Below, in pieces: positions 45,137 to 56,661 of a DNA stretch of 64,000 nucleotides. Position numbers and translations under genes: made by a program. The DNA is taken from contig NZ_CP042239.1 in assembly GCF_007833215.1 (NCBI RefSeq), forward strand, positions 620,001-684,000, given 5' to 3'. This stretch comes from Sphingomonas suaedae (lineage in GTDB: Bacteria > Pseudomonadota > Alphaproteobacteria > Sphingomonadales > Sphingomonadaceae). Positions within the stretch are counted from its first letter, which is position 1; each line of letters begins with the position of its first letter. The notes beneath the pieces were generated by a model that made no database searches, had not been told where the DNA came from, and saw nothing but the letters and a program-made list of their open reading frames with translations.

Positions 45137-45165
45137 TTGACTATTCGTTAGATTTGTCATGTCTT
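45137..45165 (+). promoter_or_regulatory. Possible promoter of the RiPP precursor gene
   Basis: TTGACT (45137-45142) is followed after 17 bases by TGTCTT (45160-45165), a weak -35/-10 pair in the AT-richer stretch before the 52-aa gene. The contrast with the GC-rich surroundings is the main support. The start codon is 32 bases further on. Confidence 0.35.
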
Positions 45166-45196
45166 TGCTTTGTCAAAGCGATCCGGGAGTGTTCCG

Positions 45197-45355
45197 ATGA
45201 ACGATTCGATGCCCAAGGCTCAGCCGCTCGCCCCCTCTGGCGAGAAACTGCCATGGACCGACCCGGAAATCGCCGAAGCGTCGATCGTCGATTATACGCG
45301 GGGCGGCGCTAGCGGCCCCACCAATATCGAGGATGCGTCTTACAGCCTGTCCTGA
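45197..45355 (+). CDS. Putative lasso-type RiPP precursor peptide
   Basis: A 52-aa peptide: leader MNDSMPKAQPLAPSGEKLPW, then TDPEIAEASIVDYTR, then GGASGPTNIEDASYSLS. A WxxPxI-type recognition segment and a Thr shortly before a Gly fit lasso leaders (Thr at -2, Gly as residue 1). If Gly36 starts the core, the acidic ring acceptors are Glu10/Asp11; if Gly37 does, Glu9/Asp10. The latter is within the usual 7-9 ring range and resembles rubrivinodin-type cores. It ends in Ser, as in paeninodin, whose C-terminal Ser is phosphorylated by an HprK-like kinase. CCGGGAG precedes the ATG. The product is inferred. Confidence 0.65.
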   Translation: MNDSMPKAQPLAPSGEKLPWTDPEIAEASIVDYTRGGASGPTNIEDASYSLS

Positions 45356-45419
45356 ACCGCGTTTCCGCTGCGGCGCGCCGAAAGCGCGTCCGACGGCGGT
45401 AGGGCGATATCCTTGATTC

Positions 45420-45439
45420 GCCCCCCGCCATTAGGGGGC
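45420..45439 (+). terminator. Hairpin between precursor and cyclase genes
   Basis: GCCCCC (45420-45425) and GGGGGC (45434-45439) pair around an 8-base loop in the 138-base gap after the precursor stop. There is no T-run, so it may act as a partial terminator or mRNA-stabilising stem, giving more precursor than enzyme message as in many RiPP operons. Confidence 0.4.
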
Positions 45440-45493
45440 TGCCATTAGTGAATCGGCTCGCTACGGCGTTGGCCACGGCGCCGATGTTAGGGC

Positions 45494-47170
45494 GTGCCCG
45501 CACAATCTTTGAGCGGCATTGGCATTATGCAGGTCTCCGCTCATCATGGAATTGCGGTCGCCGCGCGGCTCGATGCGCTTGGCACACCCGATGGGCTGTC
45601 GGGGATGGATGTCGATCGACTGGACAGCGGCGGCGGTACGATCCGTATCGTAGGTACGATCCGGCTGATGGCGCGGGAAGAGCTTGCGGAAAAGCTCGGC
45701 CTTGATCGACGCGCGAAGCCCGATGATTTCACCCTGGTCTGTGCGGCGTGGCGACGATGGGGCATAGACTGCCCGTACCACCTGACCGGCGACTTCTCCT
45801 TCCTGATTTGGGACTCGCATCAGCGGATGCTGTTCGGCGCGCGCGATCCGATCGGTATCAAACCCCTGTTCTACGATCATTTCGGCAGCAGCCTGGTCGT
45901 CTCGGATAGCCTTGAAGGACTGCTGGCAAGGCATCCCGCGCTGCCCGGCATCGATCCGGTCGCGGCAAGCGCATGGCTGTCGCGACCGTTCGACGCTGCG
46001 CGCTGTCCGTCGCTGCGCCAGCGGGTGGCGCTGCTGCCCCCGGCCCATCGGCTGGTCGCGGATGCGAGCGGATGTACGATCACCCGCTACGCCAGTCTCG
46101 ATGACGCGCCGGACGTGCGCTTCCGGCGGCGCAGCGATTATGACGAGGCGTTGCGAGCGCAACTCGCCATCGCCGTGGCGGATGCCGTGGGCGCCGACGA
46201 TCGGATCGGCGTGCATCTTTCGGGCGGCCTCGATTCCTCCGCGATCGCCGTGCTGGCGGGGCGGATGGACTCGCCGGTGCAGCGGCCACTCGCCTATTGC
46301 TGGCAACCGACAGCGTCACCGGGCGCGGTCGAGGGGGACGATCAGCGGCTGATTCGGATGCTCGCCGAACAGGAGAAACTGTCCCTCGCCGCGGTGCCGC
46401 TTCGGGTGGCGGACGTACTCGCCCAGGTGGCGATCGATCCGGTAGACCGCTCCCTGACATCGACCCTGTTGCACGAAAGCGCGGTGCAGCGCTTGGCCGG
46501 GGCAGGGGGGGTGACGGCCCTGCTGTCCGGCTGGGGCGGCGACCAGGGCCTCAGCTATCGCGGGCATGGCCGACCGGGTCCGATCGATCGCTTGCGCCGT
46601 CGGCTGAGGCGGCGCCCCCTCCATGTCGCGCGCCGGGGCGAGACGCGTGACTATCTTGCCCCGGGTCTGGTCAAGCCCGAAGCGGAGGGGCGATCGCCGG
46701 GCGGGCAGTGGCCCTCCGCGCGGGCGGAGCAGATCGCCATGCTGACGAATCCGGGGCTGGGGGAACGCATGGCATCCTGGCACTGGGCGGGGCGCAGATA
46801 CGGGATCGACTATCGCTACCCGCTGCTCGATATTCGGCTCATCCGTCTCCTTCTGGGGCTTCCCCCCGACCTGTTCCGACCCGGGCCGCACGGCCGCGAT
46901 CTGGCGCGCCGGGTGCTGGCGCCGATGCTGCCTCGGGCGATCGTCAGCTATACCGACAAGACCGATCCGACGCGCATGGCGGCGAATCAGCCGACGATCG
47001 TCTCCGCGCTCCAGCGGTTGCTCCCGCGACTCGATACCGCCGACCCCGAGCGGGCGACGTTCGTCGATCGCGCGCGCCTGGCTGCGGATATCGACCGATT
47101 GATCCAGTCCGGCGAAGGCCCTACGGGATTGATTCTGCGTACCATCGCGTTCTTGAAGCTGAAGGACTGA
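45494..47170 (+). CDS. Asparagine synthetase-like protein, probable lasso macrolactam synthetase (C protein)
   Basis: A 558-aa homologue of AsnB. The N-terminal glutaminase-like domain lacks the catalytic Cys2 (no MCG start), as in lasso C proteins. The ATP-pyrophosphatase domain has the PP-loop SGGLDSSAIAVLAG (from residue 243) and GWGGDQGLSYRG. The C-terminus has YRYPLLDIRLIRLLLGLPPD. In lasso synthesis this enzyme adenylates the Asp/Glu side chain and closes the ring onto the core N-terminus. Start uncertain: GTG 45494 or ATG 45527. The N-terminus seems short, and an open +2 frame from 45448 could hold lost N-terminal sequence. Confidence 0.8.
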   Translation: MPAQSLSGIGIMQVSAHHGIAVAARLDALGTPDGLSGMDVDRLDSGGGTIRIVGTIRLMAREELAEKLGLDRRAKPDDFTLVCAAWRRWGIDCPYHLTGDFSFLIWDSHQRMLFGARDPIGIKPLFYDHFGSSLVVSDSLEGLLARHPALPGIDPVAASAWLSRPFDAARCPSLRQRVALLPPAHRLVADASGCTITRYASLDDAPDVRFRRRSDYDEALRAQLAIAVADAVGADDRIGVHLSGGLDSSAIAVLAGRMDSPVQRPLAYCWQPTASPGAVEGDDQRLIRMLAEQEKLSLAAVPLRVADVLAQVAIDPVDRSLTSTLLHESAVQRLAGAGGVTALLSGWGGDQGLSYRGHGRPGPIDRLRRRLRRRPLHVARRGETRDYLAPGLVKPEAEGRSPGGQWPSARAEQIAMLTNPGLGERMASWHWAGRRYGIDYRYPLLDIRLIRLLLGLPPDLFRPGPHGRDLARRVLAPMLPRAIVSYTDKTDPTRMAANQPTIVSALQRLLPRLDTADPERATFVDRARLAADIDRLIQSGEGPTGLILRTIAFLKLKD

Positions 47171-47175
47171 AGCCC

Positions 47176-47760
47176 ATGGCGCGGGTAACCAAGCCGGATA
47201 GCTATCTCCCGATTTGCGAGGTGGATGTCGCGGCACTGCGCGAGCGTCTGCTTGCCGTCGGGGAGGCAGCATGGGATGCCGAGGATGCGCGCAAGGAAAA
47301 CCGCTTTTCCTGCTTCCACCATACGCGCCACATCATCGCGCGGTTCATCCCGTCGAACCGGGACCCAATGGCATTTTATGCGACCCCGTTCTGGACGGTG
47401 TGGCAGCCGCTGCTCCAGCCCATTCTCGACCGGGTCGCGTCCCACTACAGGCTGGCCGAGCCGGAGTTTCCCAAGGTCATGTTTGCGCGGCTCGCGGCCA
47501 AGGCGGGGATCGACCGACACGTCGATGGCGCCGGTTCCAATCTGCTGACGCACAAGATCCATGTGCCGCTGGTCACGAGCGAGCAAGTGTGGTTCGAAGT
47601 GGGCGATGCGCGCTTTCAGCTGCACTGCGGCCAAGCCTATGAGCTCAACAATGTGAAGCCCCATGCCGTGCGCAACGACGGCGACACGGATCGAATTCAC
47701 CTGATCTTCGAGCTGTTCGACCGGTCATTGCATAGTGCGTCGGCAGAGGTTGCGCATTGA
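47176..47760 (+). CDS. Aspartyl/asparaginyl beta-hydroxylase-type oxygenase
   Basis: A 194-aa Fe(II)/2-oxoglutarate enzyme. Metal-binding His and Asp lie in GIDRHVDGAGSN, a HKIHVPLVTSEQVWFEVG strand follows, and the second His is in ELNNVKPHAVRNDG, with DRIHLIFEL at the end. The fold is that of AspH/BOX. Within a RiPP cluster it probably hydroxylates Asp or Asn of the precursor (Asn43 or Asp46 are candidates); an Asp-hydroxylated lasso peptide, canucin, gives precedent. It starts five bases after the cyclase stop. Confidence 0.8.
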   Translation: MARVTKPDSYLPICEVDVAALRERLLAVGEAAWDAEDARKENRFSCFHHTRHIIARFIPSNRDPMAFYATPFWTVWQPLLQPILDRVASHYRLAEPEFPKVMFARLAAKAGIDRHVDGAGSNLLTHKIHVPLVTSEQVWFEVGDARFQLHCGQAYELNNVKPHAVRNDGDTDRIHLIFELFDRSLHSASAEVAH

Positions 47761-48392
47761 TCGTATCGCACGCTCATCGCTTCGTCTTCGTCGCGGTGCC
47801 GAAGACGGGATCGCAATCGGTGCGCGCGGCGCTCCGCCCGGTGCTCGGCCCGCACGACTGGGAGCAGTGCGGACTGTTCGAACAGAGGCGCTTCCCCGTC
47901 GCCGCGCTCGCCGCGCTGGGCACCGGACACCTGACCTGCGCCGAGCTTCAACCCTATCTGTTGCCCGAGATGTGGCGCGCCTACCGGCGCTTTGCATTCG
48001 TGCGCGATCCCGTCGATCGGTTCCGCTCGCTGGTCCGCTTCTGGTTTCCTCCCGAGGGACCGTCGGCGACGCTGGACGACTGCAAGCGCATCCTGACGGA
48101 CCCGGACAGCCGCGCACGGCGGCTGGTGCGTCCGCAGTCCGATTTCCTGCGCGACGCGGACGGCGCGCTGGTCGTCGACTTGATCGGCCGCCACGACAGG
48201 ATGGACAGCGATTTCTCGCATATCGTAACGGCGCTCGGGCTCCCGCCGCTTGCGCTGCCGCTCCGCAACGCCTCGCGTCCGGACGCGCTTGTGCCCGAAT
48301 TCGACGATGAGTTGCGCGCGATGATCGCGGATGTTTATCGCGAAGACTTTCTGCTCGCCCCGTTGACGCCGCGCGCGGCGGACGCCGCATGA
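47757..48392 (+). CDS. Sulfotransferase family 2-type protein
   Basis: A 211-aa protein. The PAPS 5'-phosphosulfate loop is FVAVPKTGSQSVRAALR, and the 3'-phosphate region is YRRFAFVRDPVDRFRSLVRF. This is the layout of family-2 (carbohydrate/HNK-1-like) sulfotransferases. It starts with TTG overlapping the previous stop (TTGA) and ends overlapping the kinase gene (ATGA), so it is tightly coupled in the operon. Likely substrates are a hydroxyl on the RiPP product (Tyr49, Ser or a hydroxylated residue). Confidence 0.82.
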   Translation: MIVSHAHRFVFVAVPKTGSQSVRAALRPVLGPHDWEQCGLFEQRRFPVAALAALGTGHLTCAELQPYLLPEMWRAYRRFAFVRDPVDRFRSLVRFWFPPEGPSATLDDCKRILTDPDSRARRLVRPQSDFLRDADGALVVDLIGRHDRMDSDFSHIVTALGLPPLALPLRNASRPDALVPEFDDELRAMIADVYREDFLLAPLTPRAADAA

Positions 48393-49285
48393 CCTGTCAG
48401 CACTTGTTCGGCATGGCGATCCGCTCGCCCTTTCCGTTCGATGCCCCCGCTGCGCCGCACGATGTCGCACCGGACGTGGAGATCGACCTCGCCCCGGTGC
48501 CGGACGGGCTGGTCGGGGGAAGGCGATACAATCCGCTCAACTGGGTGGCCCCCGGCCAGTTGCTTCTGACGCAGCCGGGGATTGCGCGCTATCTGGTCAG
48601 CGAAGGCCGCCATATCGGCGTCGCTCCATATCCGGGCGCGGAGCAGGCGGCACTGGCGCTTTATACCGCCGTGTCGCCGCTTGCCGGGATTCTGCACCAG
48701 CGGGGGAAGATCGTGCTGCACGCATCCGGCGTGCTGACGCGCAAGGGGGTATTGTTGTTCACCGCGCCGAGCGGAGTGGGCAAGTCGACCCTGGCCGCGG
48801 TCCTCGCCGCGCGCGGTCATGCGCTCGTGACCGACGATATGGCCGTAGTCGATCCGGAGGCGGGACGCTGGCGGGTCTTCCCCGGCCCGGCGCGGCTCAA
48901 ATTATGGCCGGATTCGCTCGACGCGCTCGACGTCGATGCGGCGCCGCTCCAGCCGATCCGGGACGGCATCGCCAAGCGATTTCTGCCGATGGCCGTGCCG
49001 GGGCATTCCGGAGTGCCGCTGGCCGGGGTCGTCGGGCTCGATATCCATGGCGCGCAGGCGGGCATCACGGTGGAGCCGCTGCCGCGCGAAAAGGCCGTCG
49101 CGCTGTTGATGCACAACACGTTCCGACGGCGGATGCAGGCAGCGGCCGGCGGGGTCGAGAACAATCTCGCCCGGCTGGCGCCGCTGGCGGGCGAGGTGCC
49201 CTGCTTTGCGGCGCGACGGAGCGCTCGCACCTTCGAACTGGCGGCGCTGGCCGACGCGGTCGAGGCAATTGTCGATCGTCTGTGA
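48389..49285 (+). CDS. HPr kinase-like protein (HprK C-terminal type)
   Basis: A 298-aa protein. The HprK-like kinase core has HASGVLTRKGVLLFTAPSGV with GKSTLAAVLAARG (P-loop about residues 126-134), LVTDDMAVVD (Walker B-like DD) and a late PLPREKAVALLMHNTFRRRM segment. Such kinases occur in lasso clusters; in the paeninodin pathway one phosphorylates the C-terminal Ser of the precursor. The precursor here also ends in Ser, so the same reaction is proposed. Overlaps its upstream neighbour by four bases. Confidence 0.82.
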   Translation: MTCQHLFGMAIRSPFPFDAPAAPHDVAPDVEIDLAPVPDGLVGGRRYNPLNWVAPGQLLLTQPGIARYLVSEGRHIGVAPYPGAEQAALALYTAVSPLAGILHQRGKIVLHASGVLTRKGVLLFTAPSGVGKSTLAAVLAARGHALVTDDMAVVDPEAGRWRVFPGPARLKLWPDSLDALDVDAAPLQPIRDGIAKRFLPMAVPGHSGVPLAGVVGLDIHGAQAGITVEPLPREKAVALLMHNTFRRRMQAAAGGVENNLARLAPLAGEVPCFAARRSARTFELAALADAVEAIVDRL

Positions 49286-49288
49286 CAC

Positions 49289-50104
49289 ATGATCTATTGG
49301 CTCGCCTCCTATCCGCGTTCGGGCAACACCTGGTGCCGCGCGGTGCTGAGCAATCTGATGCTTCCCGCCGCCGGAGAATCGGCCGATATCCGCCGACTGG
49401 CGGCGCCGCCGACCGCGATCAGCCGCGATGCCTTCGACACCGAATTCGACTGCAGTTCTTCCGAAATGACGATCGATGAGGTCGATCGGCTTCGCCCTGA
49501 CCTGTATCTGCGGCTCGCTGCGGCGGCGCGCGAGCCGTTGGTGATCAAGCTTCATTGCGCCTATCGGACCGCCAGCGACGGTCGGCCGATATTCCCGCAC
49601 GCAGCAACGGCGGGAGTGGCGCTGATCGTGCGCAATCCGCTGGATGTCGCGCTGTCGCTTGCGCCGTTCCTCAGCATGACGCTCGATGAGGCGATCGACT
49701 GGATGGAACGCGAGGATGCCGAGCTCAGCCGTCAGCATATCGGCAGCACCCCCGCTCTGCCCCAGCGGATCGGATCGTGGAGCGGCCATATCGCGAGCTG
49801 GCTGGATGCCAGCAGGATGCGGCTGCATCTTGTGCGCTATGAGGATCTCCAGGCCGATCCTGTCGCGGCATTCGGCGCGCTGGCGAACTTTCTGGGCCTC
49901 GATGCCGGCCCCGACCGAATCCGCGACGCCGTGGAACGAAGCAGGTTCGACCATCTCCAGGCCCAGGAATTGCGGCATTCGGGGGACGCACGCTACTTCC
50001 GTCGAGGACAGGTCGGCGAATGGCGCGATGCGCTTTCGGCAGAGCGGCGCGAACGCCTGATCGCGGCGCATGGGCCGATGATGCGGCGGCTTGGCTATGG
50101 CTGA
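49289..50104 (+). CDS. Sulfotransferase domain protein
   Basis: A 271-aa family-1-like sulfotransferase: PAPS loop IYWLASYPRSGNTWCRAVL, 3'-phosphate site VALIVRNPLDVALSLAPF, LHLVRYEDLQADPVAAFGAL and a closing RRGQVGEWRDALSAERR (the GxxGxxK/W-type region). It is the second of three sulfotransferases in the cluster and starts four bases after the kinase stop. A tyrosine or hydroxyl group on the RiPP product is the proposed acceptor. Confidence 0.87.
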   Translation: MIYWLASYPRSGNTWCRAVLSNLMLPAAGESADIRRLAAPPTAISRDAFDTEFDCSSSEMTIDEVDRLRPDLYLRLAAAAREPLVIKLHCAYRTASDGRPIFPHAATAGVALIVRNPLDVALSLAPFLSMTLDEAIDWMEREDAELSRQHIGSTPALPQRIGSWSGHIASWLDASRMRLHLVRYEDLQADPVAAFGALANFLGLDAGPDRIRDAVERSRFDHLQAQELRHSGDARYFRRGQVGEWRDALSAERRERLIAAHGPMMRRLGYG

Positions 50105-50168
50105 ACCTCGACGGGCCGAAGAATTGGGCTATGATATCGGAAGTTGATTTCTTGCAGGACCCGTCCCG

Positions 50169-50465
50169 ATGACAGCGATTGCCCCGAACGCCTCGACCCG
50201 CTTGCGGCGATCGCCAACGGCGATGAGCAGCGAACTGCCCGACGGCTTCGTTATCATGGACATTGAGAGCGGCCATTATTTCTCGCTCAACGAGACAGGC
50301 TCGGCGATTTGGGGGGCACTAGAAAATCCGGTGACCGAGGGAGAGATCGTCGACAGGCTGTGCGAGCGCTTCGACATCCCGGCTGATACGTGTCGCGCCA
50401 AGGTCGCGGACTTCCTTGATCGCCTGGGGCGGTTTCGGATCGTCGAGATCGCGCCGGCCGACTAA
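50169..50465 (+). CDS. PqqD family protein (RiPP recognition element, B1-like)
   Basis: A 98-aa winged-helix protein: LPDGFVIMDIESGHYFSLNE, TGSAIWGALENPVTEGEIVD and a C-terminal ADFLDRLGRFRIVEI strand. This is the RRE fold that binds RiPP leader peptides and presents them to modifying enzymes; in lasso clusters it is the B1 protein. It is 20 bases upstream of the radical SAM gene, so it may serve that enzyme, the cyclase or both. Confidence 0.88.
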   Translation: MTAIAPNASTRLRRSPTAMSSELPDGFVIMDIESGHYFSLNETGSAIWGALENPVTEGEIVDRLCERFDIPADTCRAKVADFLDRLGRFRIVEIAPAD

Positions 50466-50485
50466 GCACAAGGGGGAGCCGGATC

Positions 50486-52453
50486 ATGGACGAGCAAGCG
50501 CCGATCGACGTCCTACTCGTCAACATGCCCTTCTCGCCCACGGAACTGCCCTCCACGGGGCTTTCGTTGCTGGCCCAGTGTCTGCGCGAGGCGGGCTTTC
50601 GAGCCAAGGTCGATTATCCCAACCTTCGCCTGGAGCAGGCGATCGGCGAGTCCGCCTATGCGCGTCTGTCGCGCGGTTGGTTCGCCCATATTCTGGTCGG
50701 CGAATGGGTGTTCTCCCGCCTGCTCGCGCCGGTTGGCTCGGCCGAGATTTTTGCCGACATGATCCGCCGCCGCTTTGCCGACCAGATCTGGGCAGGGCGG
50801 CAGCCGGAACTGGTGGAGCGTGTCATAGACCGGCTTCCGGAGGTCGAGGCCGCCGCCGCCGAGCTGATCGACGCGCTGGTGGCAAAGGTCGGCGCGTTAC
50901 GGCCACGGGTCGTGGGGTTCAGCAGCTGCTTTCACCAGCATGTCGCGTCGCTGGCGGCCGCGCGACGCGTAAAGGAGGCATTTCCCGAAACCCTTGTCGT
51001 GCTTGGCGGCAGCAACTGCAACGGCACGATGGGTCTCGAAACCTTCCGCCATTTCCCGTTCCTCGACGCGGTGGTGTCCGGCCCGGGCGAGATTGCGCTT
51101 CTTGAACTGGTGCGGCACCATCTGAGCGGCACTGCGATGCCCGACATGCCGGGCGTCTATCTGCGTGGACCCCGCCGTTCGACACACGAAGAGCTGGTCG
51201 ATTTGACCGAGAGCGTCGCGCCCGAGCCGCTGCTCGACGGCCTGCCGCTTGTCGATTACGACGATTATTTCGATGCCTTCCCGACTGACGGCAGCCGGCG
51301 AGTGAAGCTTCCGATCGAAACGTCGCGGGGATGCTGGTGGGGACAAAAGCATCACTGCGTCTTCTGTTCGGAAAATGCGGACAGCATCAAATATCGCGTC
51401 AAGTCGTCCGATCGGGTGATCGACGAGTTTCGCTGGCTTACGGAACGCTATCCGGGCTGCGCCATCCAGGCGACGGATGAGATACTCGATCCGCGTCATA
51501 TCCCGACGGTGATGCCTGAGCTTGCGAAGCTACCGGACAAGCCCAGCATCTACTTCTCGATCAAGGCGAATATTCGCAAGGATGAGCTGAAAACGCTGGT
51601 CGGCGCCGGGACCGACAGCCTGCAGGCGGGGATCGAAAGCCTGGACGACGACGTCCTGCGCGGAATGCGCAAGGGCGTGACCGCGATCCGCAATGTCCAG
51701 CTGCTCAAATGGTGCCGCGAGCTGGGCATTTCGATGCAGTGGAGCATCCTCTACGGCTTTCCGTTCGAGCGGCCCCAATCCTATACGGACATGGCTGCGC
51801 TGCTGCCGCTGCTCACCCATCTTGAACCGACCAAGCTGATCGAGGTGAAGTTGCAGCGATACAGTCCGCTGTTCCGGGAGGCCGCTCGGTTCGGGATTTC
51901 CGACATACGGCCGGATGAGAGCTACGGACATATCTATGCTCTGTCCGACGCTGTGCTGAGCGATCTTGCTTATTGGTTCTCCTACCGCTGTGAGCGGCCG
52001 GTCGCATTGCATGACTATGTCGCGCCGTTGCAGGAGGCAGCGGCGCAGTGGCGGCAAGCTGCAGGCGAAGCCTTTCTGTTCTTCACCGACGATGGCGAGC
52101 ATCTGGCGATCTGCGACACGCGCCGTGTTGCATCGTGCGACTTCCATCTGCTCGAAGGACCCGCGCGCGAGATCTATCGCGCCTGCGACGCCGCACAACC
52201 GGCCCATGCGGTGTGCAAGCAGATTGCCGAGAGCTTCCCCGACGTCGATGCCGCGCGCGTCCAGGAAATTCTCGACGGGCTTGTAGCGCACCGGCTCGTC
52301 ATGGAATCCGGCGGTCTCTATCTCGCATTGGCGATCGAGCTATCGACGCGCAGCCTGCCGCCCATGCCGGTAATGGCGCGGTTCGTCGGCGCGCGCGATG
52401 CGGCACTGCGCGAGCGGCAGCCGCGGCGAATGAGCGTGGCGGCGGCGGCCTGA
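50486..52453 (+). CDS. RiPP maturation radical SAM C-methyltransferase (B12-binding type)
   Basis: A 655-aa enzyme. The N-terminal cobalamin-binding Rossmann domain (about 1-230) has VLLVNMPFSPTELPSTGLSL and VVGFSSCFHQHVASLAAARR with LVVLGGSNCNG. The radical SAM core has TSRGCWWGQKHHCVFC, the Cys-x7-Cys-x2-Cys arrangement of the RiPP maturase 1 family (Cys 283, 291, 294), and AGIESLDDDVLRGMRKG. The C-terminal wing ends LEGPAREIYRACDAAQ. It would methylate unactivated carbons of the precursor. GGGGGAG precedes the ATG. Confidence 0.88.
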   Translation: MDEQAPIDVLLVNMPFSPTELPSTGLSLLAQCLREAGFRAKVDYPNLRLEQAIGESAYARLSRGWFAHILVGEWVFSRLLAPVGSAEIFADMIRRRFADQIWAGRQPELVERVIDRLPEVEAAAAELIDALVAKVGALRPRVVGFSSCFHQHVASLAAARRVKEAFPETLVVLGGSNCNGTMGLETFRHFPFLDAVVSGPGEIALLELVRHHLSGTAMPDMPGVYLRGPRRSTHEELVDLTESVAPEPLLDGLPLVDYDDYFDAFPTDGSRRVKLPIETSRGCWWGQKHHCVFCSENADSIKYRVKSSDRVIDEFRWLTERYPGCAIQATDEILDPRHIPTVMPELAKLPDKPSIYFSIKANIRKDELKTLVGAGTDSLQAGIESLDDDVLRGMRKGVTAIRNVQLLKWCRELGISMQWSILYGFPFERPQSYTDMAALLPLLTHLEPTKLIEVKLQRYSPLFREAARFGISDIRPDESYGHIYALSDAVLSDLAYWFSYRCERPVALHDYVAPLQEAAAQWRQAAGEAFLFFTDDGEHLAICDTRRVASCDFHLLEGPAREIYRACDAAQPAHAVCKQIAESFPDVDAARVQEILDGLVAHRLVMESGGLYLALAIELSTRSLPPMPVMARFVGARDAALRERQPRRMSVAAAA

Positions 52454-52463
52454 CCGGCGCGAT

Positions 52464-52763
52464 TCAGCCGAAGACCGCCTCATAGGCGAAATTGCCGTCG
52501 GGAAGCCGGTCGATCGGGACGAGGAAGATTTCGAGCATCCCCAGCGCGTCATTTTCCAGCCGATAGCTGTGCTGCCCCAGCAGCACGTCGCGGCTCTCGC
52601 CCGCGAACGTCAGCAGAAACCCCTGGCGCATCCCGGACGGCGGCACCGTTGCAGCCACGCGGGCGGCGGTTAAGGTCAGTGCCTCGGCGTGGCCCGGATA
52701 AGCCATGCGGAACGGCTGCCCGATCAACGGCTCGAAATCTTCCAGGGTCAATCCGTCGTTCAA
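52464..52763 (-). CDS. DUF6916 family protein
   Basis: A 99-aa protein read against the cluster direction. It has LTLEDFEPLIGQPFRMAYPG, FLLTFAGESRDVLLGQHSYR and the family end GMLEIFLVPIDRLPDG with FAYEAVFG. Proteins of this type usually sit beside tail-collar proteins, as here. The best start is TTG 52763 (LNDGLTLEDF) with GGAAGG upstream. Function unknown; it may be a chaperone or structural partner of the collar proteins. Confidence 0.75.
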   Translation of the reverse strand: MNDGLTLEDFEPLIGQPFRMAYPGHAEALTLTAARVAATVPPSGMRQGFLLTFAGESRDVLLGQHSYRLENDALGMLEIFLVPIDRLPDGNFAYEAVFG

Positions 52764-52820
52764 GAGACCCTTCCTTCCCGCTTCGGGCGTCGCTAGGCTA
52801 TACCATACGACCCGACAAAT

Positions 52821-53606
52821 ATGTCCCGGAGGACCGGGGTGCAATCGCTTCTTTCCGGGCGGACCGCCGCCGAAATCAGGACCGATCCCTTTCCCCATCT
52901 TGTCGCGGCGGACTGCCTGGCGCCGGATGATTATGCGGCGCTGTGCGCGCATTTTCCGGCGGTTTCCCGCATCACCTGGAGCGGATCAGGGCCGTCGATG
53001 CGCAGCAACCGGCGCTTTGCCATGCCTGCGACGGCGCTGCTTGCCGGAGCTGACATCGCTCCGTGCTGGAAGGCATTCGCGGCACGGCACAGCGGGCCTG
53101 AATTCTTTTCGGAGGTCGCGGCCTTTTTCGACGGTTATTGGCCGGACGCGATGCTGCGCGCTCTGGGAGGGACGCTTGCAGGCCACAGCATGGGGCCGCT
53201 CGACCTCAGCGCGCCGGGGGCGTTCAAGATTCACCTCGACGCCCGCATCGAGATCAACACCCCGGTCCTGACAACGCCGTCGGTGGTGCGCGGTCCCCAT
53301 CTGGACACGCCCAACCGGCTATATTCCTGCCTGTTCTACCTGCGCCACCCGGACGATGATTCGTTTGGCGGCGAGCTTCTGCTCTATCGCTGGCGGGCGA
53401 GTGCCGAGCGCCGGGTCGATTGTTATGCGCTGGATGAAGCGGAGGTGGAGGTGGCGGCGGTCATTCCCTACCGTGCCAACCAGATGGTGATATTTCCCCA
53501 GACAATCGACTCGGTGCATGGCGTCGGGCTGCGGCATCCGACGCCGCATGTCCGCCGCTATGTGTTCGTTACGGCCGAACTGGCCGATCCCTGGCTGGAG
53601 GCGTGA
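52821..53606 (+). CDS. 2OG-Fe(II) oxygenase family protein
   Basis: A 261-aa protein. The double-stranded beta-helix has RGPHLDTPNRLYSCLFYLRH (HxD metal ligands), FGGELLLYRW, and IFPQTIDSVHGVG with the distal His, followed by VRRYVFVTAEL (2OG-binding Arg region). It probably hydroxylates a protein or peptide side chain. It overlaps the next sulfotransferase gene by four bases (GTGA), suggesting hydroxylation followed by sulfation. Confidence 0.82.
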   Translation: MSRRTGVQSLLSGRTAAEIRTDPFPHLVAADCLAPDDYAALCAHFPAVSRITWSGSGPSMRSNRRFAMPATALLAGADIAPCWKAFAARHSGPEFFSEVAAFFDGYWPDAMLRALGGTLAGHSMGPLDLSAPGAFKIHLDARIEINTPVLTTPSVVRGPHLDTPNRLYSCLFYLRHPDDDSFGGELLLYRWRASAERRVDCYALDEAEVEVAAVIPYRANQMVIFPQTIDSVHGVGLRHPTPHVRRYVFVTAELADPWLEA

Positions 53607-54262
53607 GAAGGATGCGTTTGCTGGTCCACGGAATGCAATCGAGCGGGGCGACGGCGTTCACCCTGATGCTGGCGCAGCGACCCGATTGCCTGGCGCTGGT
53701 CGATGTGCCCAACAATTTCGCGGCACCGCGGGTCGCCACGTCCCGCGATTTCGTGGCCAAGGTGGTGGTCACCACCGCCTATCCGCTGTCGGTCCATGTC
53801 GAGCGCTTTCGCCCGGACCGAGTCGTGCTGTTCCTGCGTGACCCGCGCGACATCTATATGAGCCTCCGCACCAAGCATTATCGCAACCATTCCGGTCTGA
53901 TCGCCGAGAAATTCGCGATCCTCGACGCGTTGTTCGCGTCGCGCGACCGATTTGACGCGGTGATCGAATATGAGGACTTCGTGACACGGCATGAGTCGGT
54001 GCATGTGGCGATGCGTCGTCTCGGCTGGCCGGTCGATGCGCGCTATTACGCGTTTGAGCGACGCCATAAGGAGTTGCTGGCCGCCCTGTGGGAGCATGAG
54101 CCGGCGCTGATGGACGCGATGGATTTTGCCTTCGGCGCCGTTCGCGATGCGCATGTCTCCGAAAGACATCAGAACAAGCCCCGGGATCCGGATGTCGAAG
54201 CAGTGTTGACGAAATGGTGTCCCAGGCTTCTTTCGCATTATTGCACGCGACAGACCGCATAG
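53603..54262 (+). CDS. Sulfotransferase-like protein
   Basis: A 219-aa protein. The PAPS-loop position reads LLVHGMQSSGATAFTLMLAQ, degenerate compared with PRSGTT, and the 3'-phosphate site is clear: RVVLFLRDPRDIYMSLRTKH. VIEYEDFVTRHESVHVAMRR follows. It is the third sulfotransferase of the cluster. Start is GTG 53603 (coupled to the oxygenase stop) or ATG 53612. Catalytic competence is less certain because of the loop change. Confidence 0.72.
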   Translation: MRRMRLLVHGMQSSGATAFTLMLAQRPDCLALVDVPNNFAAPRVATSRDFVAKVVVTTAYPLSVHVERFRPDRVVLFLRDPRDIYMSLRTKHYRNHSGLIAEKFAILDALFASRDRFDAVIEYEDFVTRHESVHVAMRRLGWPVDARYYAFERRHKELLAALWEHEPALMDAMDFAFGAVRDAHVSERHQNKPRDPDVEAVLTKWCPRLLSHYCTRQTA

Positions 54263-54371
54263 TGCCGCCATATCGGTGGCAAACAATAAAAGTCACTTGG
54301 ATTTCTTTGCGACCTGTATAGCATGTGCGAGCGGTAGAAACCTCGTGCTGACAGGAACCGGGGGAGGGACG

Positions 54372-54923
54372 ATGTCGGATCCATTCTTAGGCGAAATCAA
54401 GATGTGGGCGTTTCCGTGGGCGCCAAGCGGCTGGGCCTTCTGTGATGGCGCGAATCTTCCGGTAAACCAGAATCAGGCGCTGTATTCTCTGCTCGGGGTG
54501 ACGTTCGGCGGAACGGCAGGCCAGAATTTCAACCTGCCCGATCTGCGCGGGCGCACGCCCCTGGGCACCGGCGCCGGCGGATCGGTTGGCACCTACAATA
54601 TGGGAAACACGGGCGGCTTGGAGGCGGTGGCGCTCACCGTCGCGACCGTGCCGCCGCACACGCACGAGGTGGTCGGCTACAGCACCGCCGCGACGACACA
54701 GTCTCCGACCGGGAATATGCTCGCGAATGTGAATAGCGCGACGTCCGGAAGCACCACGAATTTTTCCACCTTCCTGCCGGGCGGCAACTGGACCGCGAAC
54801 GCAGTTCTGAATGCGGGCACCATCGATAGCGCCGGGGGCGGTACTCCCCACAACAATATGCAGCCGTTCGGCGTAACGAATTTTACGATCTGCCAATCGG
54901 GAAGCTACCCGCCGCGGAATTGA
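54372..54923 (+). CDS. Phage-tail-collar domain protein (MdpB-like), copy 1
   Basis: A 183-aa protein: DPFLGEIKMWAFPWAPSGWA with FCDGANLPVNQNQALYSLLG and FNLPDLRGRTPLGTG, the microcystin-dependent-protein/tail-collar signature, then VPPHTHEV and a closing HNNMQPFGVTNFTICQSG. Such domains form trimeric fibres in phages and appear in bacterial clusters without other phage genes. GGGAGGGACG precedes the ATG. First of three tandem copies. Confidence 0.88.
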   Translation: MSDPFLGEIKMWAFPWAPSGWAFCDGANLPVNQNQALYSLLGVTFGGTAGQNFNLPDLRGRTPLGTGAGGSVGTYNMGNTGGLEAVALTVATVPPHTHEVVGYSTAATTQSPTGNMLANVNSATSGSTTNFSTFLPGGNWTANAVLNAGTIDSAGGGTPHNNMQPFGVTNFTICQSGSYPPRN

Positions 54924-54995
54924 TGGGCGCCGTATCTTTCTTGTCGGCATAGGTGTGAAGCACGGTTCGGCAATACCCTATCCAGGAGTTTCGAC

Positions 54996-55535
54996 ATGGA
55001 TCCATATGTTGGCGAAATCCGGATGTTTGCGGGCGCCAGAGCGCCCCAGAACTGGCATTTCTGCGATGGAACGGCGCTGTCTATCCAGACCTATCAGACA
55101 CTTTATTCTCTGATCGGTACCACCTACGGCGGCAGCGGTCCGACCTTCAACCTTCCCGATTTTCGAGGCAGGCTTCCAATCGGTCAGGGGCAAGGGAGTG
55201 GGCTTACCAACCGAATGATCGGCCAGTCGGGCGGGGTGTCCACTGTCGCACTGACCGAGGCCAACATCCCGGCGCATAGCCACGCCTTTAACGCCAGCAC
55301 CGCGACGGCGACAACGCCCAGCGTGGCGTCTGGCGTCGGCCTGGCTACACCTACGTCACCCGTCGTGCGCTATGCTCCGCCCGGCGCGACGCCCGCCCCG
55401 ACGCCGGTTTCGCTCGATGATGCTGCGATAACCGCGGCCCCAGGTGGCGGTGAGGCGCATCTTAATGTGATGCCCTATCTGGCCATCAACTATATCATTT
55501 GTGTCGATGGCCTGTATCCGATGCGGCCGAACTGA
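54996..55535 (+). CDS. Phage-tail-collar domain protein, copy 2
   Basis: A 179-aa paralogue: DPYVGEIRMFAGARAPQNWH with FCDGTALSIQTYQTLYSLIG, FNLPDFRGRLPIGQG, IPAHSHAF and HLNVMPYLAINYIICVDG. The variable central part between HSHAF and HLNVMPY differs from copies 1 and 3, as expected of a receptor- or ligand-facing region. It follows copy 1 by 72 bases. Confidence 0.88.
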   Translation: MDPYVGEIRMFAGARAPQNWHFCDGTALSIQTYQTLYSLIGTTYGGSGPTFNLPDFRGRLPIGQGQGSGLTNRMIGQSGGVSTVALTEANIPAHSHAFNASTATATTPSVASGVGLATPTSPVVRYAPPGATPAPTPVSLDDAAITAAPGGGEAHLNVMPYLAINYIICVDGLYPMRPN

Positions 55536-55548
55536 CGGGAGACACCTT

Positions 55549-56109
55549 ATGGACGGCTTTATCGGCGAAATTCGCATGATGCCCTACAATTACACGCCAA
55601 TGGGCTGGCTCCCGTGCCTGGGCCAACAAGTCAACATCTATCAATATCAGGCGCTCTTTGCCGTGGTCGGTAGCATTTACGGCCCATACAACCAGCAGAC
55701 TTTTTACTTGCCGGATCTTCGCGGGCGTACCGCCGTGTGCCAGGGCAATAATCCCGTCGATCTCTTTGATCCACCGCTCGGCAGCAAAGACGGTTCCGTC
55801 GGCGTCACACTGACGACGTCGAACATGTACCCGCACACCCATGGGATGAACGCCGCGACAGTACCCGCCGGCCAGCGCGTTGGAGCGGCGGCGGGCAACT
55901 GGCTCGCCGTCCCGGCGGCGGTGAATTCCAGTTCGGTCGAGATCGGTCGCGCCTTCACCCCGGCTTCGGGCGCGCAGACACCGGTCGCGCTCGCGCCAGC
56001 GACGCTGACGCCCTATCCGGGTACGGGGGGAGCGCATGAGAATCGGCAACCCTATCTCGCGATGCCCTTTTTCATCTGTTACGATGGCTTGTTCCCGACA
56101 CCGAATTAG
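55549..56109 (+). CDS. Phage-tail-collar domain protein, copy 3
   Basis: A 186-aa paralogue: DGFIGEIRMMPYNYTPMGWL with PCLGQQVNIYQYQALFAVVG, FYLPDLRGRTAVCQG, YPHTHGM and HENRQPYLAMPFFICYDG. The ATG at 55549 follows GGGAGACACCTT, 13 bases after copy 2. The three copies share ends and differ in the middle, so they could assemble as a heteromeric fibre or surface protein. Confidence 0.88.
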   Translation: MDGFIGEIRMMPYNYTPMGWLPCLGQQVNIYQYQALFAVVGSIYGPYNQQTFYLPDLRGRTAVCQGNNPVDLFDPPLGSKDGSVGVTLTTSNMYPHTHGMNAATVPAGQRVGAAAGNWLAVPAAVNSSSVEIGRAFTPASGAQTPVALAPATLTPYPGTGGAHENRQPYLAMPFFICYDGLFPTPN

Positions 56110-56130
56110 GGCCAGCCCGCGCGATTCAAC

Positions 56131-56661
56131 ATGCTGCCGCCGTTTTTTCCCGACGTCCCCAAGGGGCTGGCTGCGCGCGGCGTGACTCTGCGAGCGCGGA
56201 CGCTGGACGATGAGGCGTTCCTGCGCGATGTCTATGTCGCCTATCGCTGGGCGGAGTTGGAAGCGATCGGCTGGCCCGAGGCGCAGCGGCTCGCGTTTCT
56301 TCACCAGCAACACCAGCTCCAGGATCTGCATTATCGCACCCATTATGACGGGATGGGATGGGGCATCATCGAAGTGGCGGGCGCTCGCGCAGGCCGCCTC
56401 TATCTTCTGCAGCGTGGCGGGGAGTTGCGCATCATCGACATTGCCCTGATGCCCGAATATCGCGGCATAGGCATCGGCGGAGAGTTGCTGGCTGCGATTC
56501 AGCGCCATGCGACCATTGCCGGCGCTACGCTGGTCAGTATCCATGTCGAGACAAATAATCCGGCGCTGCGACTGTACGAGCGCCTCGGCTTCATCCACGC
56601 CGAACAGCGGGGTATCTACCAGCTTCTCACTTGGAAGCCGGCGTCGGCGCCGGTCGATTGA
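56131..56661 (+). CDS. GNAT family N-acetyltransferase
   Basis: A 176-aa GNAT: VTLRARTLDDEAFLRDVYVA, IIDIALMPEYRGIGIGGELL with the acetyl-CoA loop RGIGIG, and VETNNPALRLYERLGF. It closes the collar-gene run, 21 bases after copy 3. Acetyltransferases of this kind are often found with MdpB-type collar genes; the acceptor is not known. Confidence 0.87.
   Translation: MLPPFFPDVPKGLAARGVTLRARTLDDEAFLRDVYVAYRWAELEAIGWPEAQRLAFLHQQHQLQDLHYRTHYDGMGWGIIEVAGARAGRLYLLQRGGELRIIDIALMPEYRGIGIGGELLAAIQRHATIAGATLVSIHVETNNPALRLYERLGFIHAEQRGIYQLLTWKPASAPVD

Follow-up and report, generated by a model that had tools for sequence, protein, structure and literature searches.

The 64,000-nt window analyzed here, positions 620001–684000 of one 4.15-Mb contig of Sphingomonas suaedae, contains between rimM (TIGR02273, 116.6 bits vs. 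a cutoff of 66.2) and a chondroitinase-B-family gene (PF14592) a locus that, on balance, probably encodes a split, hyper-tailored lasso-type pathway for a ribosomally synthesized and post-translationally modified peptide (RiPP), a variant of the kinase-tailored lasso clusters. The ten gene types that a preliminary description of the sequence had placed between rimM and the next operon were all found there by family or motif assignment. Three phage-tail-collar-domain genes (in the following called collars), a GNAT gene and a DUF6916 gene are a further part of the locus, missed in that description. The core of AspH, HprK, sulfotransferase (ST), PqqD and AsnB genes is widespread and is the known part; none of the relatives that we examined combines all these modules, and the recurrent link to collars is the newest point of the locus. 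Our interpretation draws on the gene content, a precursor motif, the recurrence of the core, an orphan gene for the lasso leader peptidase B2, and a pair of genes for a second 2-oxoglutarate (2OG) oxygenase and the ST-like protein ST3 that recurs beside collars. Its predicted part comprises all reactions and modified residues, a peptidase acting in trans, the topology of the product and the role of the collars.

The candidate precursor consists of a leader with the motif W20-T-D-P23, Thr34 and the putative core GGASGPTNIEDASYSLS. It matched no hidden Markov model family in Pfam or NCBIfam. Small open reading frames (ORFs) located beside cyclase genes share a W/YxxP motif, a Thr about 10 residues further on and a C-terminal acid-Tyr-Ser arrangement. 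A strict version of this motif (W/YxxP, Thr, acid, Tyr, C-terminal Ser) matched once in the 64-kb window, whereas in the compared loci, which overlap in part and total 2.32 Mb, it identified 23 distinct peptides including that of the window, all at most ~2.3 kb away from an AsnB-type match. Shuffled window sequence (1.92 Mb) gave a single match. Because the motif was derived from the same peptides, the absence of off-target matches is the only informative part of this result; judged by these sequence patterns, the predicted precursor is beyond chance.

We compiled 38 precursors, 36 of them from kinase- or ST-type loci. Thr positions were assigned by script; in L048 and L063 a later Thr is possible as well, with the acid then at 10 and 9. 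Where no Thr could be assigned, the C-terminal 22 residues were taken as the core. L028 and L135 contributed two precursors each, the pairs L024/L045, L025/L061 and L027/L058 represent the same genomes and were entered once, and the precursors of L060, L131, L134, L135, L136 and L138 were chosen by motif, annotation or position only. There was no candidate in L040, L041, L042, L050, L052, L057, L120, L121 and L125. A C-terminal Ser, Ser52 in the window, was found in 34 of the 36 precursors from kinase- or ST-type loci. Of 29 precursors from ST2 loci, 27 had a Tyr in the core, which was also present in two of three from loci with ST1 only and in none of the four from loci lacking both. Fisher’s test yielded p = 3.7e-4 for 27/29 vs. 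0/4 and 0.001 when the ST1-only loci were joined to the latter (2/7), values uncorrected for relatedness and indicative only, because the precursors are mutually related. This correlation of Tyr with ST2 suggests Tyr sulfation, as we infer from the sequences. A strict rule, Tyr if and only if a sulfotransferase, was rejected, with L123 and L134 (ST2, no Tyr) and L136 (ST1-type only, no Tyr) as exceptions.

We propose that the PqqD protein would bind the W20TDP23 leader motif, that the kinase would phosphorylate the C-terminal Ser52, that ST2, with or without ST1, may sulfate Tyr49 or a nearby hydroxyl, and that a hydroxyl group may be added by the AspH-type oxygenase within the conserved acidic segment (E45/D46). 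The B12-radical SAM enzyme would C-methylate an unactivated carbon. The core would then be released in trans by the orphan B2 encoded at 3.62 Mb, and the AsnB-like enzyme would couple E45 to the N-terminus thus freed. A second module, found together with some pathways of this kind, may consist of the 2OG-ST3 pair plus the three collars.

The translation of the HprK-like kinase contains the motif HASG...GVGKS...TDD, hence the His-Lys-Asp-Asp motif is present; an automated kinase pattern missed it because of its spacing, and it was read by eye. The kinase named in the preliminary description is recognizable by these motifs, but its family scores lie under the curated cutoffs (Pfam 26.6 vs. 33.3, HprK_rel_A 48.8 vs. 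200). The C-terminal Ser of the precursor is consistent with kinase action, as PadeK, ThcoK and SyanK phosphorylate a C-terminal Ser according to the available text of PMC8498205 and PMC9266682, whereas BsfK is described in that of PMC10368454 to phosphorylate Ser3 of its own precursor instead. Of the three sulfotransferases counted initially, ST1 and ST2 were assigned by Pfam, but ST3 by motifs only. These motifs, GMQSSGATAF (P-loop) and RDPRD (RDPxD), are conserved in two Azospirillum homologs. We call ST3 sulfotransferase-like only, because it matched no Pfam, NCBIfam or PDB sequence and its single-sequence fold reached a predicted local distance difference test (pLDDT) value of just 33.

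To describe the distribution of the core cluster, one genome per species was scanned by AspH alignment; this confirmed 132 stretches, and we retained 80 of them. Among these, 27 RiPP-type loci were picked by hand from tblastn results; L059, with aspH alone on a short contig, was omitted. ORFs in unannotated loci were called by a script trained on the window genes, hence the gene lists of the compared loci are approximate. The genes aspH, hprK, ST2, pqqD and asnB occurred together in 20 of the 27 loci, belonging, according to their record titles, to Sphingopyxis, Sphingorhabdus, Sphingomonas canadensis, Parerythrobacter, Pontixanthobacter, Aurantiacibacter and Citromicrobium, and also to an uncultured Rhodobacteraceae assembly and to metagenome bins with the names Erythrobacter, Acidobacteria, Pyrinomonadaceae, Anaerolineales and Owenweeksia. 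The remaining 53 stretches comprise two with aspH alone and 51 with a conserved ST1-aspH pair (among L065–L119; Lysobacter, Caulobacter, Brevundimonas and others) without other RiPP genes; kinase, RiPP recognition element (RRE) and cyclase had no match within these stretches.

The window’s radical SAM, second 2OG and ST3 genes had no match at E 1e-4 in the 80 aspH stretches, many of which are short contigs. With the cyclase as query at E 1e-60, only the own genome was found among 298 family genomes, and neither the first scan of named genomes nor a plasmid scan at 1e-30 returned a relative. A published Pontixanthobacter table lists nearly consecutively B2, a nucleotidyltransferase, a sulfotransferase, AspH, a hypothetical protein, another sulfotransferase, PqqD, AsnB and a glycosyltransferase (PMC10040529); in the available part of that source the run stands, uninterpreted, among gene clusters co-occurring with halotolerance. 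The statement that no pathway with the full set had been described agrees with our searches of the open-access literature, which found none, but has to be narrowed in that the core is widespread and already contained in this table. Two further loci were noticed. In L030 (C1:498000-510000), an AsnB-like gene is paired with an HprK-like one ahead of type-I-secretion ABC- and membrane-fusion-like ORFs, without a PqqD match; this is possibly another kinase-type RiPP locus. L138 of S. canadensis has within a single stretch a cyclase, a precursor-like ORF, a collar that begins with a signal-peptide-like segment, the kinase, ST2, PqqD and B2 genes and, judged by eye, an ORF resembling an ABC exporter; it is a compact relative that may have its own exporter.

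The PqqD-type RRE scored 75 bits for PF05402 (cutoff 23.4); its best NCBIfam model was the lasso PqqD chaperone (60.2 vs. a cutoff of 80). We regard it as lasso-like because its nearest solved structures, the best PDB matches, are TbiB1 and 9x90 (lasso PqqD chaperone). The cyclase scores above the PF00733 cutoff, retains an SGGLDSS motif and has no Cys within residues 1–60, thus no glutaminase nucleophile. Its structure model (pLDDT 81, residues 1–29 poor) was closest to the folds of TsnB9, AsnB and beta-lactam synthetase; among the fold-search matches listed there was no structure named lasso cyclase, which excludes nothing.

Several findings weigh against a lasso-type pathway as proposed here. 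The best NCBIfam model of the cyclase, the lasso-cyclase model NF033535, gave 179.4 vs. a cutoff of 525. The window contains no PF13471 match for B2 (tblastn at chance level only, E 0.46), and among the scanned genes of the locus none belonged to an exporter family. In lasso peptides, the ring acid (Asp or Glu) is expected at core position 7, 8 or 9. WTDP and Thr34 are found at the family spacing, and if Thr34 is assumed to be position −2, the first acid is E at core position 10, followed by D at 11. Of the 33 precursors with a placed Thr, 14 have no acid at 7–9, and that of Thalassobaculum L134 has no acid at all. Moreover, Tyr is missing from the ST2-locus precursors of L123 and L134, the TSH100 candidate precursor has no Tyr and ends in Gly, and the core of L045, an AspH locus, lacks Asp and Asn.

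The product could accordingly be something other than a threaded lasso, namely a macrolactam that is larger and unthreaded, or a different amide, made by an AsnB-like enzyme that uses an acid fixed relative to the C-terminal Tyr-Ser. Many precursors hold an acid at constant distance from the C-terminus (acid, 2–3 residues, Tyr, 1–2 residues, Ser) with its core position varying from 9 to 13, and the cyclase score below the lasso-cyclase cutoff would fit as well. We nevertheless find such a product rather doubtful: under the Thr(−2) rule, 19 of the 33 precursors have an acid at 7–9, cleavage one residue later would place E at core position 9 in the window, and B2 is present in 25 of the 27 genomes with related clusters, though some of these B2 proteins may serve other lasso clusters.

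The S. suaedae genome encodes three proteins above the PF13471 cutoff. Two belong to separate loci (L038 and L039); the third is an orphan lasso B2 (C1:3624.6 kb; NF033537, 70.7 vs. 33) adjoining another AspH-type oxygenase gene (PF05118; L037:7955-8578). By eye, the orphan follows a gene resembling 5-aminolevulinate synthase. L038 (C1:716.7-719.4 kb) and L039 (C1:2811-2814 kb) appear to be two canonical lasso clusters, each with a short precursor-like ORF, a fused RRE-B2-looking protein and a cyclase-like ORF; their neighbors, also judged by eye, include acyl-homoserine-lactone synthase-like, PhyH-like oxygenase and GntR-like regulator ORFs. According to tblastn, the related loci L028 and L029 of the same genome lack B2 as well, which, together with the orphan gene, makes a peptidase acting in trans plausible though unproven. 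The idea that this cluster family generally lacks B2, an impression from the first view of L024–L027, was rejected, as the PF13471 search detected B2 in 25 of the 27 genomes and tblastn located it inside the stretch in 14 of the 27 loci.

A cluster decaying after loss of the leader peptidase, or one whose modified peptide stays linear, like those of the LPP family, would also account for the missing B2, here and in the paralogous L028 and L029. Linear polyphosphorylated peptides are made by Bacillota, and the LPP systems share the RRE, the HprK-like kinase and the YxxP-type leader with the window (PMC13381572). We judge this quite improbable, since every listed gene has an uninterrupted reading frame and the genome has an orphan B2, and since the LPP clusters, as far as the available text goes, are restricted to Bacillota and have no cyclase but an SpI-like peptidase, whereas the window has a cyclase and the scanned genes of the locus no match to the signal-peptidase family.

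With B2 encoded outside the cluster and a ring that is only predicted, we do not claim membership in the lasso peptides and speak of a putative lasso-type pathway by gene content. Of the phosphorylated, sulfated and C-methylated lasso-like product envisaged at first, the gene content, the precursor motifs and the recurrence in other genomes support a pathway tailored by kinase, sulfotransferases and hydroxylase, but the lasso product is not secured, with B2 outside the cluster and, under the Thr(−2) rule, no acid at core 7–9.

The assignment of the radical SAM protein as a RiPP maturase-1-type B12/radical SAM enzyme was borne out. TIGR03975 scored 567.4, about twice the cutoff (281.85), over profile positions 1–606 of 606, and a CX7CX2C motif is present. 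Relatives with at most 38% identity were found in seven of 397 genomes of the family sample, including the own genome. In six 20-kb neighborhoods of these relatives there was none of the other window genes, and a homolog on the Mesorhizobium plasmid MesoLjLa4 belongs to a Nif11-leader/NHLP cluster; both observations count against a role in the pathway proposed here. A match in Paracoccus had no annotated features around it. The enzyme may thus serve another RiPP, for instance of the NHLP/Nif11 type, and have been placed here by chance, in keeping with the Mesorhizobium homolog and with the lack of a match in any of the 80 aspH stretches. This is unlikely in our view, as the gene starts only 20 bp past pqqD on the same strand and the window offers no second precursor. 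Such a precursor was considered and rejected: queries with Nif11 and L018 small ORFs had no match in the window, and by eye its leftover small ORFs were not precursor-like. Given the short distance to pqqD and the lack of another precursor, recruitment of the enzyme into the lasso-type pathway is the simpler reading.

The opposite-strand DUF6916 gene sits between the radical SAM and second 2OG genes. ST3 and the second 2OG oxygenase were each found in one of 276 genomes of the order sample, the own genome only (E 1e-6 and 1e-12). Homologs of ST3 (62–66% identity) and of the second 2OG oxygenase (51%) lie on two Azospirillum plasmids, and a further 2OG homolog (31%) on a Pseudomonas luteola plasmid. 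On TSH100 p1 (NZ_CP039640.1) the order is 2OG-ST3-B2-DUF6916-like, with ST3 and B2 overlapping by 4 bp, then on the opposite strand GNAT and three collars; beyond the collars follow a 54-aa ORF, a cupin gene and then AsnB, HprK, AspH and PqqD. TSH100 p1 thus shares with the window AsnB, HprK, AspH, PqqD, 2OG-ST3, GNAT, three collars and a DUF6916-like protein. It differs in having B2 in the locus and no tblastn match to the window’s radical SAM, ST1 and ST2; an annotated 340-aa radical SAM protein is located ~2.7 kb past PqqD. Azospirillum oryzae has three collars, GNAT, DUF6916-like, HprK, AsnB, B2 and PqqD, without ST3. In A. ramasamyi, where the record start has three annotated features, one collar, a 107-aa hypothetical protein, GNAT, 2OG and ST3 are present, and there was no lasso-type tblastn match in the two stretches examined.

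Collars adjoin RiPP-type loci at ten places: the window, the two Azospirillum loci, L029, L122–L124, L138 of S. canadensis and the bins L041 (aspH, hprK) and L064 (pqqD, aspH, ST1). The own genome has five collar genes at three places, two of these at kinase/sulfotransferase clusters. GNAT genes stand beside collars in Azospirillum and Pontibrevibacter, and tblastn matches of DUF6916 adjoin collars in L131, L132 and L137. Collars occur somewhere in 24 of the 27 genomes, some as tandem arrays, a raw count without a sphingomonad background rate. A general partnership of collars with AspH-type clusters was rejected, as only two of the 27 loci have one within the stretch. In L139 (Sphingopyxis sp. 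HIX) we noticed twelve collar-domain genes in 20 kb, many with a signal-peptide-like start (by eye).

As a tentative and rather speculative idea, the collar proteins might serve one clade of phospho/sulfo lasso-type RiPPs as dedicated carriers, receptors, co-substrates or partners of that sort, with 2OG-ST3 tailoring the peptide, the collar or both, and the peptide acting with a tail-fiber-like protein at the cell surface. A real possibility, which we rate somewhat short of probable, is that two adjacent systems are present: a lasso-type pathway from the precursor to the radical SAM gene, and a collar-GNAT-DUF6916-2OG-ST3 system acting on collars or glycans. The opposite-strand DUF6916 gene and a 367-bp gap divide the operon, Pontibrevibacter has collars, GNAT and DUF6916 without lasso genes, and A. 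ramasamyi the collar, GNAT, 2OG and ST3 without a lasso-type match. Moreover, an AsnB-type gene was found near collars in only two of 65 collar-bearing plasmid records, a lower bound; the AsnB query at 1e-25 returned six records but does not detect, for example, the L134 and L136 cyclases, and in one Tistrella record, compared at its best cyclase place only, collars and cyclases are far apart. A single pathway that includes the second module is instead suggested by TSH100, where ST3 overlaps the lasso B2 and other lasso-type genes are near, and by the ten RiPP-type loci with adjoining collars.

Among known systems, the kinase-tailored lasso clusters of the paeninodin/SyanK type share with the window the HprK-like kinase, a discrete PqqD RRE, an AsnB-type cyclase, the W/YxxP leader, the Thr and the C-terminal Ser; the window lacks B2 in the cluster and adds two to three sulfotransferases, AspH, radical SAM, a second 2OG oxygenase and collars. 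SyanK, likened here by its description, comes from Sphingobium yanoikuyae (PMC9266682, as far as available). In canucin, the Fe/2OG oxygenase CanE is described to beta-hydroxylate the C-terminal Asp of a lasso precursor (excerpt of PMC8498205); the window oxygenase is of the AspH type (PF05118) and likewise compared by description. The same excerpt cites Zhu et al. 2016c for Firmicute lasso clusters with a putative sulfotransferase gene, one there compared with three in the window. Within the TIGR03975 family the window enzyme is full-length and far above the cutoff; the Mesorhizobium example has a Nif11-type leader, an epimerase and an NHLP exporter, but no lasso-type cyclase as in the window.

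If the lasso-type pathway operates as proposed, phosphate, sulfate, hydroxyl and C-methyl groups would all be attached to the macrolactam of a single short peptide, which our open-access literature searches did not find elsewhere, and the locus would supply peptide sulfotransferases and a radical SAM methyltransferase working in a lasso-type setting. The recurrence of collars and a leader peptidase encoded elsewhere would alter how clusters are delimited in genome mining. Each modification can be tested by means of the common precursor motif and the correlation in gene content.

Table 1 Genes of the putative lasso-type locus, with positions in the window.
Feature	Position	Strand	Basis or remark
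Precursor peptide, 52 aa (candidate)	45197..45355	+	GGGAG upstream of ATG
AsnB-type ATP-dependent cyclase (lasso C-like)	45527..47170	+	PF00733, 82.3 bits
AspH-type 2OG oxygenase (Asp/Asn beta-hydroxylase family)	47176..47760	+	PF05118, 48.1 bits
ST1, Sulfotransfer_2	47757..48392	+	PF03567, 44.3 bits; TTG start assumed
HprK-like kinase, putative peptide kinase	48389..49285	+	PF07475, 26.6 bits; HprK_rel_A, E 4.9e-13; both under curated cutoffs
ST2, Sulfotransfer_1	49289..50104	+	PF00685, 80.1 bits
PqqD-type RRE (lasso B1-like)	50169..50465	+	PF05402, 75 bits
B12-binding radical SAM C-methyltransferase (rSAM_ocin_1), predicted	50486..52453	+	TIGR03975, 567.4 bits
DUF6916 protein	52464..52763	-	PF21880, 83.3 bits; ORF extendable to 52952
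Second 2OG-Fe(II) oxygenase	52821..53606	+	PF13640, 29.5 vs. cutoff 27
ST3, divergent sulfotransferase-like protein	53603..54262	+	Motifs only, outside all families searched
Phage-tail-collar-domain protein 1	54372..54923	+	PF07484, 90.1 bits
Phage-tail-collar-domain protein 2	54996..55535	+	PF07484, 87.5 bits
Phage-tail-collar-domain protein 3	55549..56109	+	PF07484, 75.8 bits (scanned from 55546); ATG at 55549
GNAT acetyltransferase	56131..56661	+	PF00583, 47.8 bits

We counted eight promoter-like sites (2.2 expected) and 11 terminator-like sites (7.6 expected), which were not used as evidence. Overlaps of 4 bp, said in the preliminary description to prevail, occur at just three of 13 junctions (aspH/ST1, ST1/hprK and 2OG/ST3), the rest being gaps of 3–367 bp. 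The reading frames of all genes listed in Table 1 are uninterrupted.

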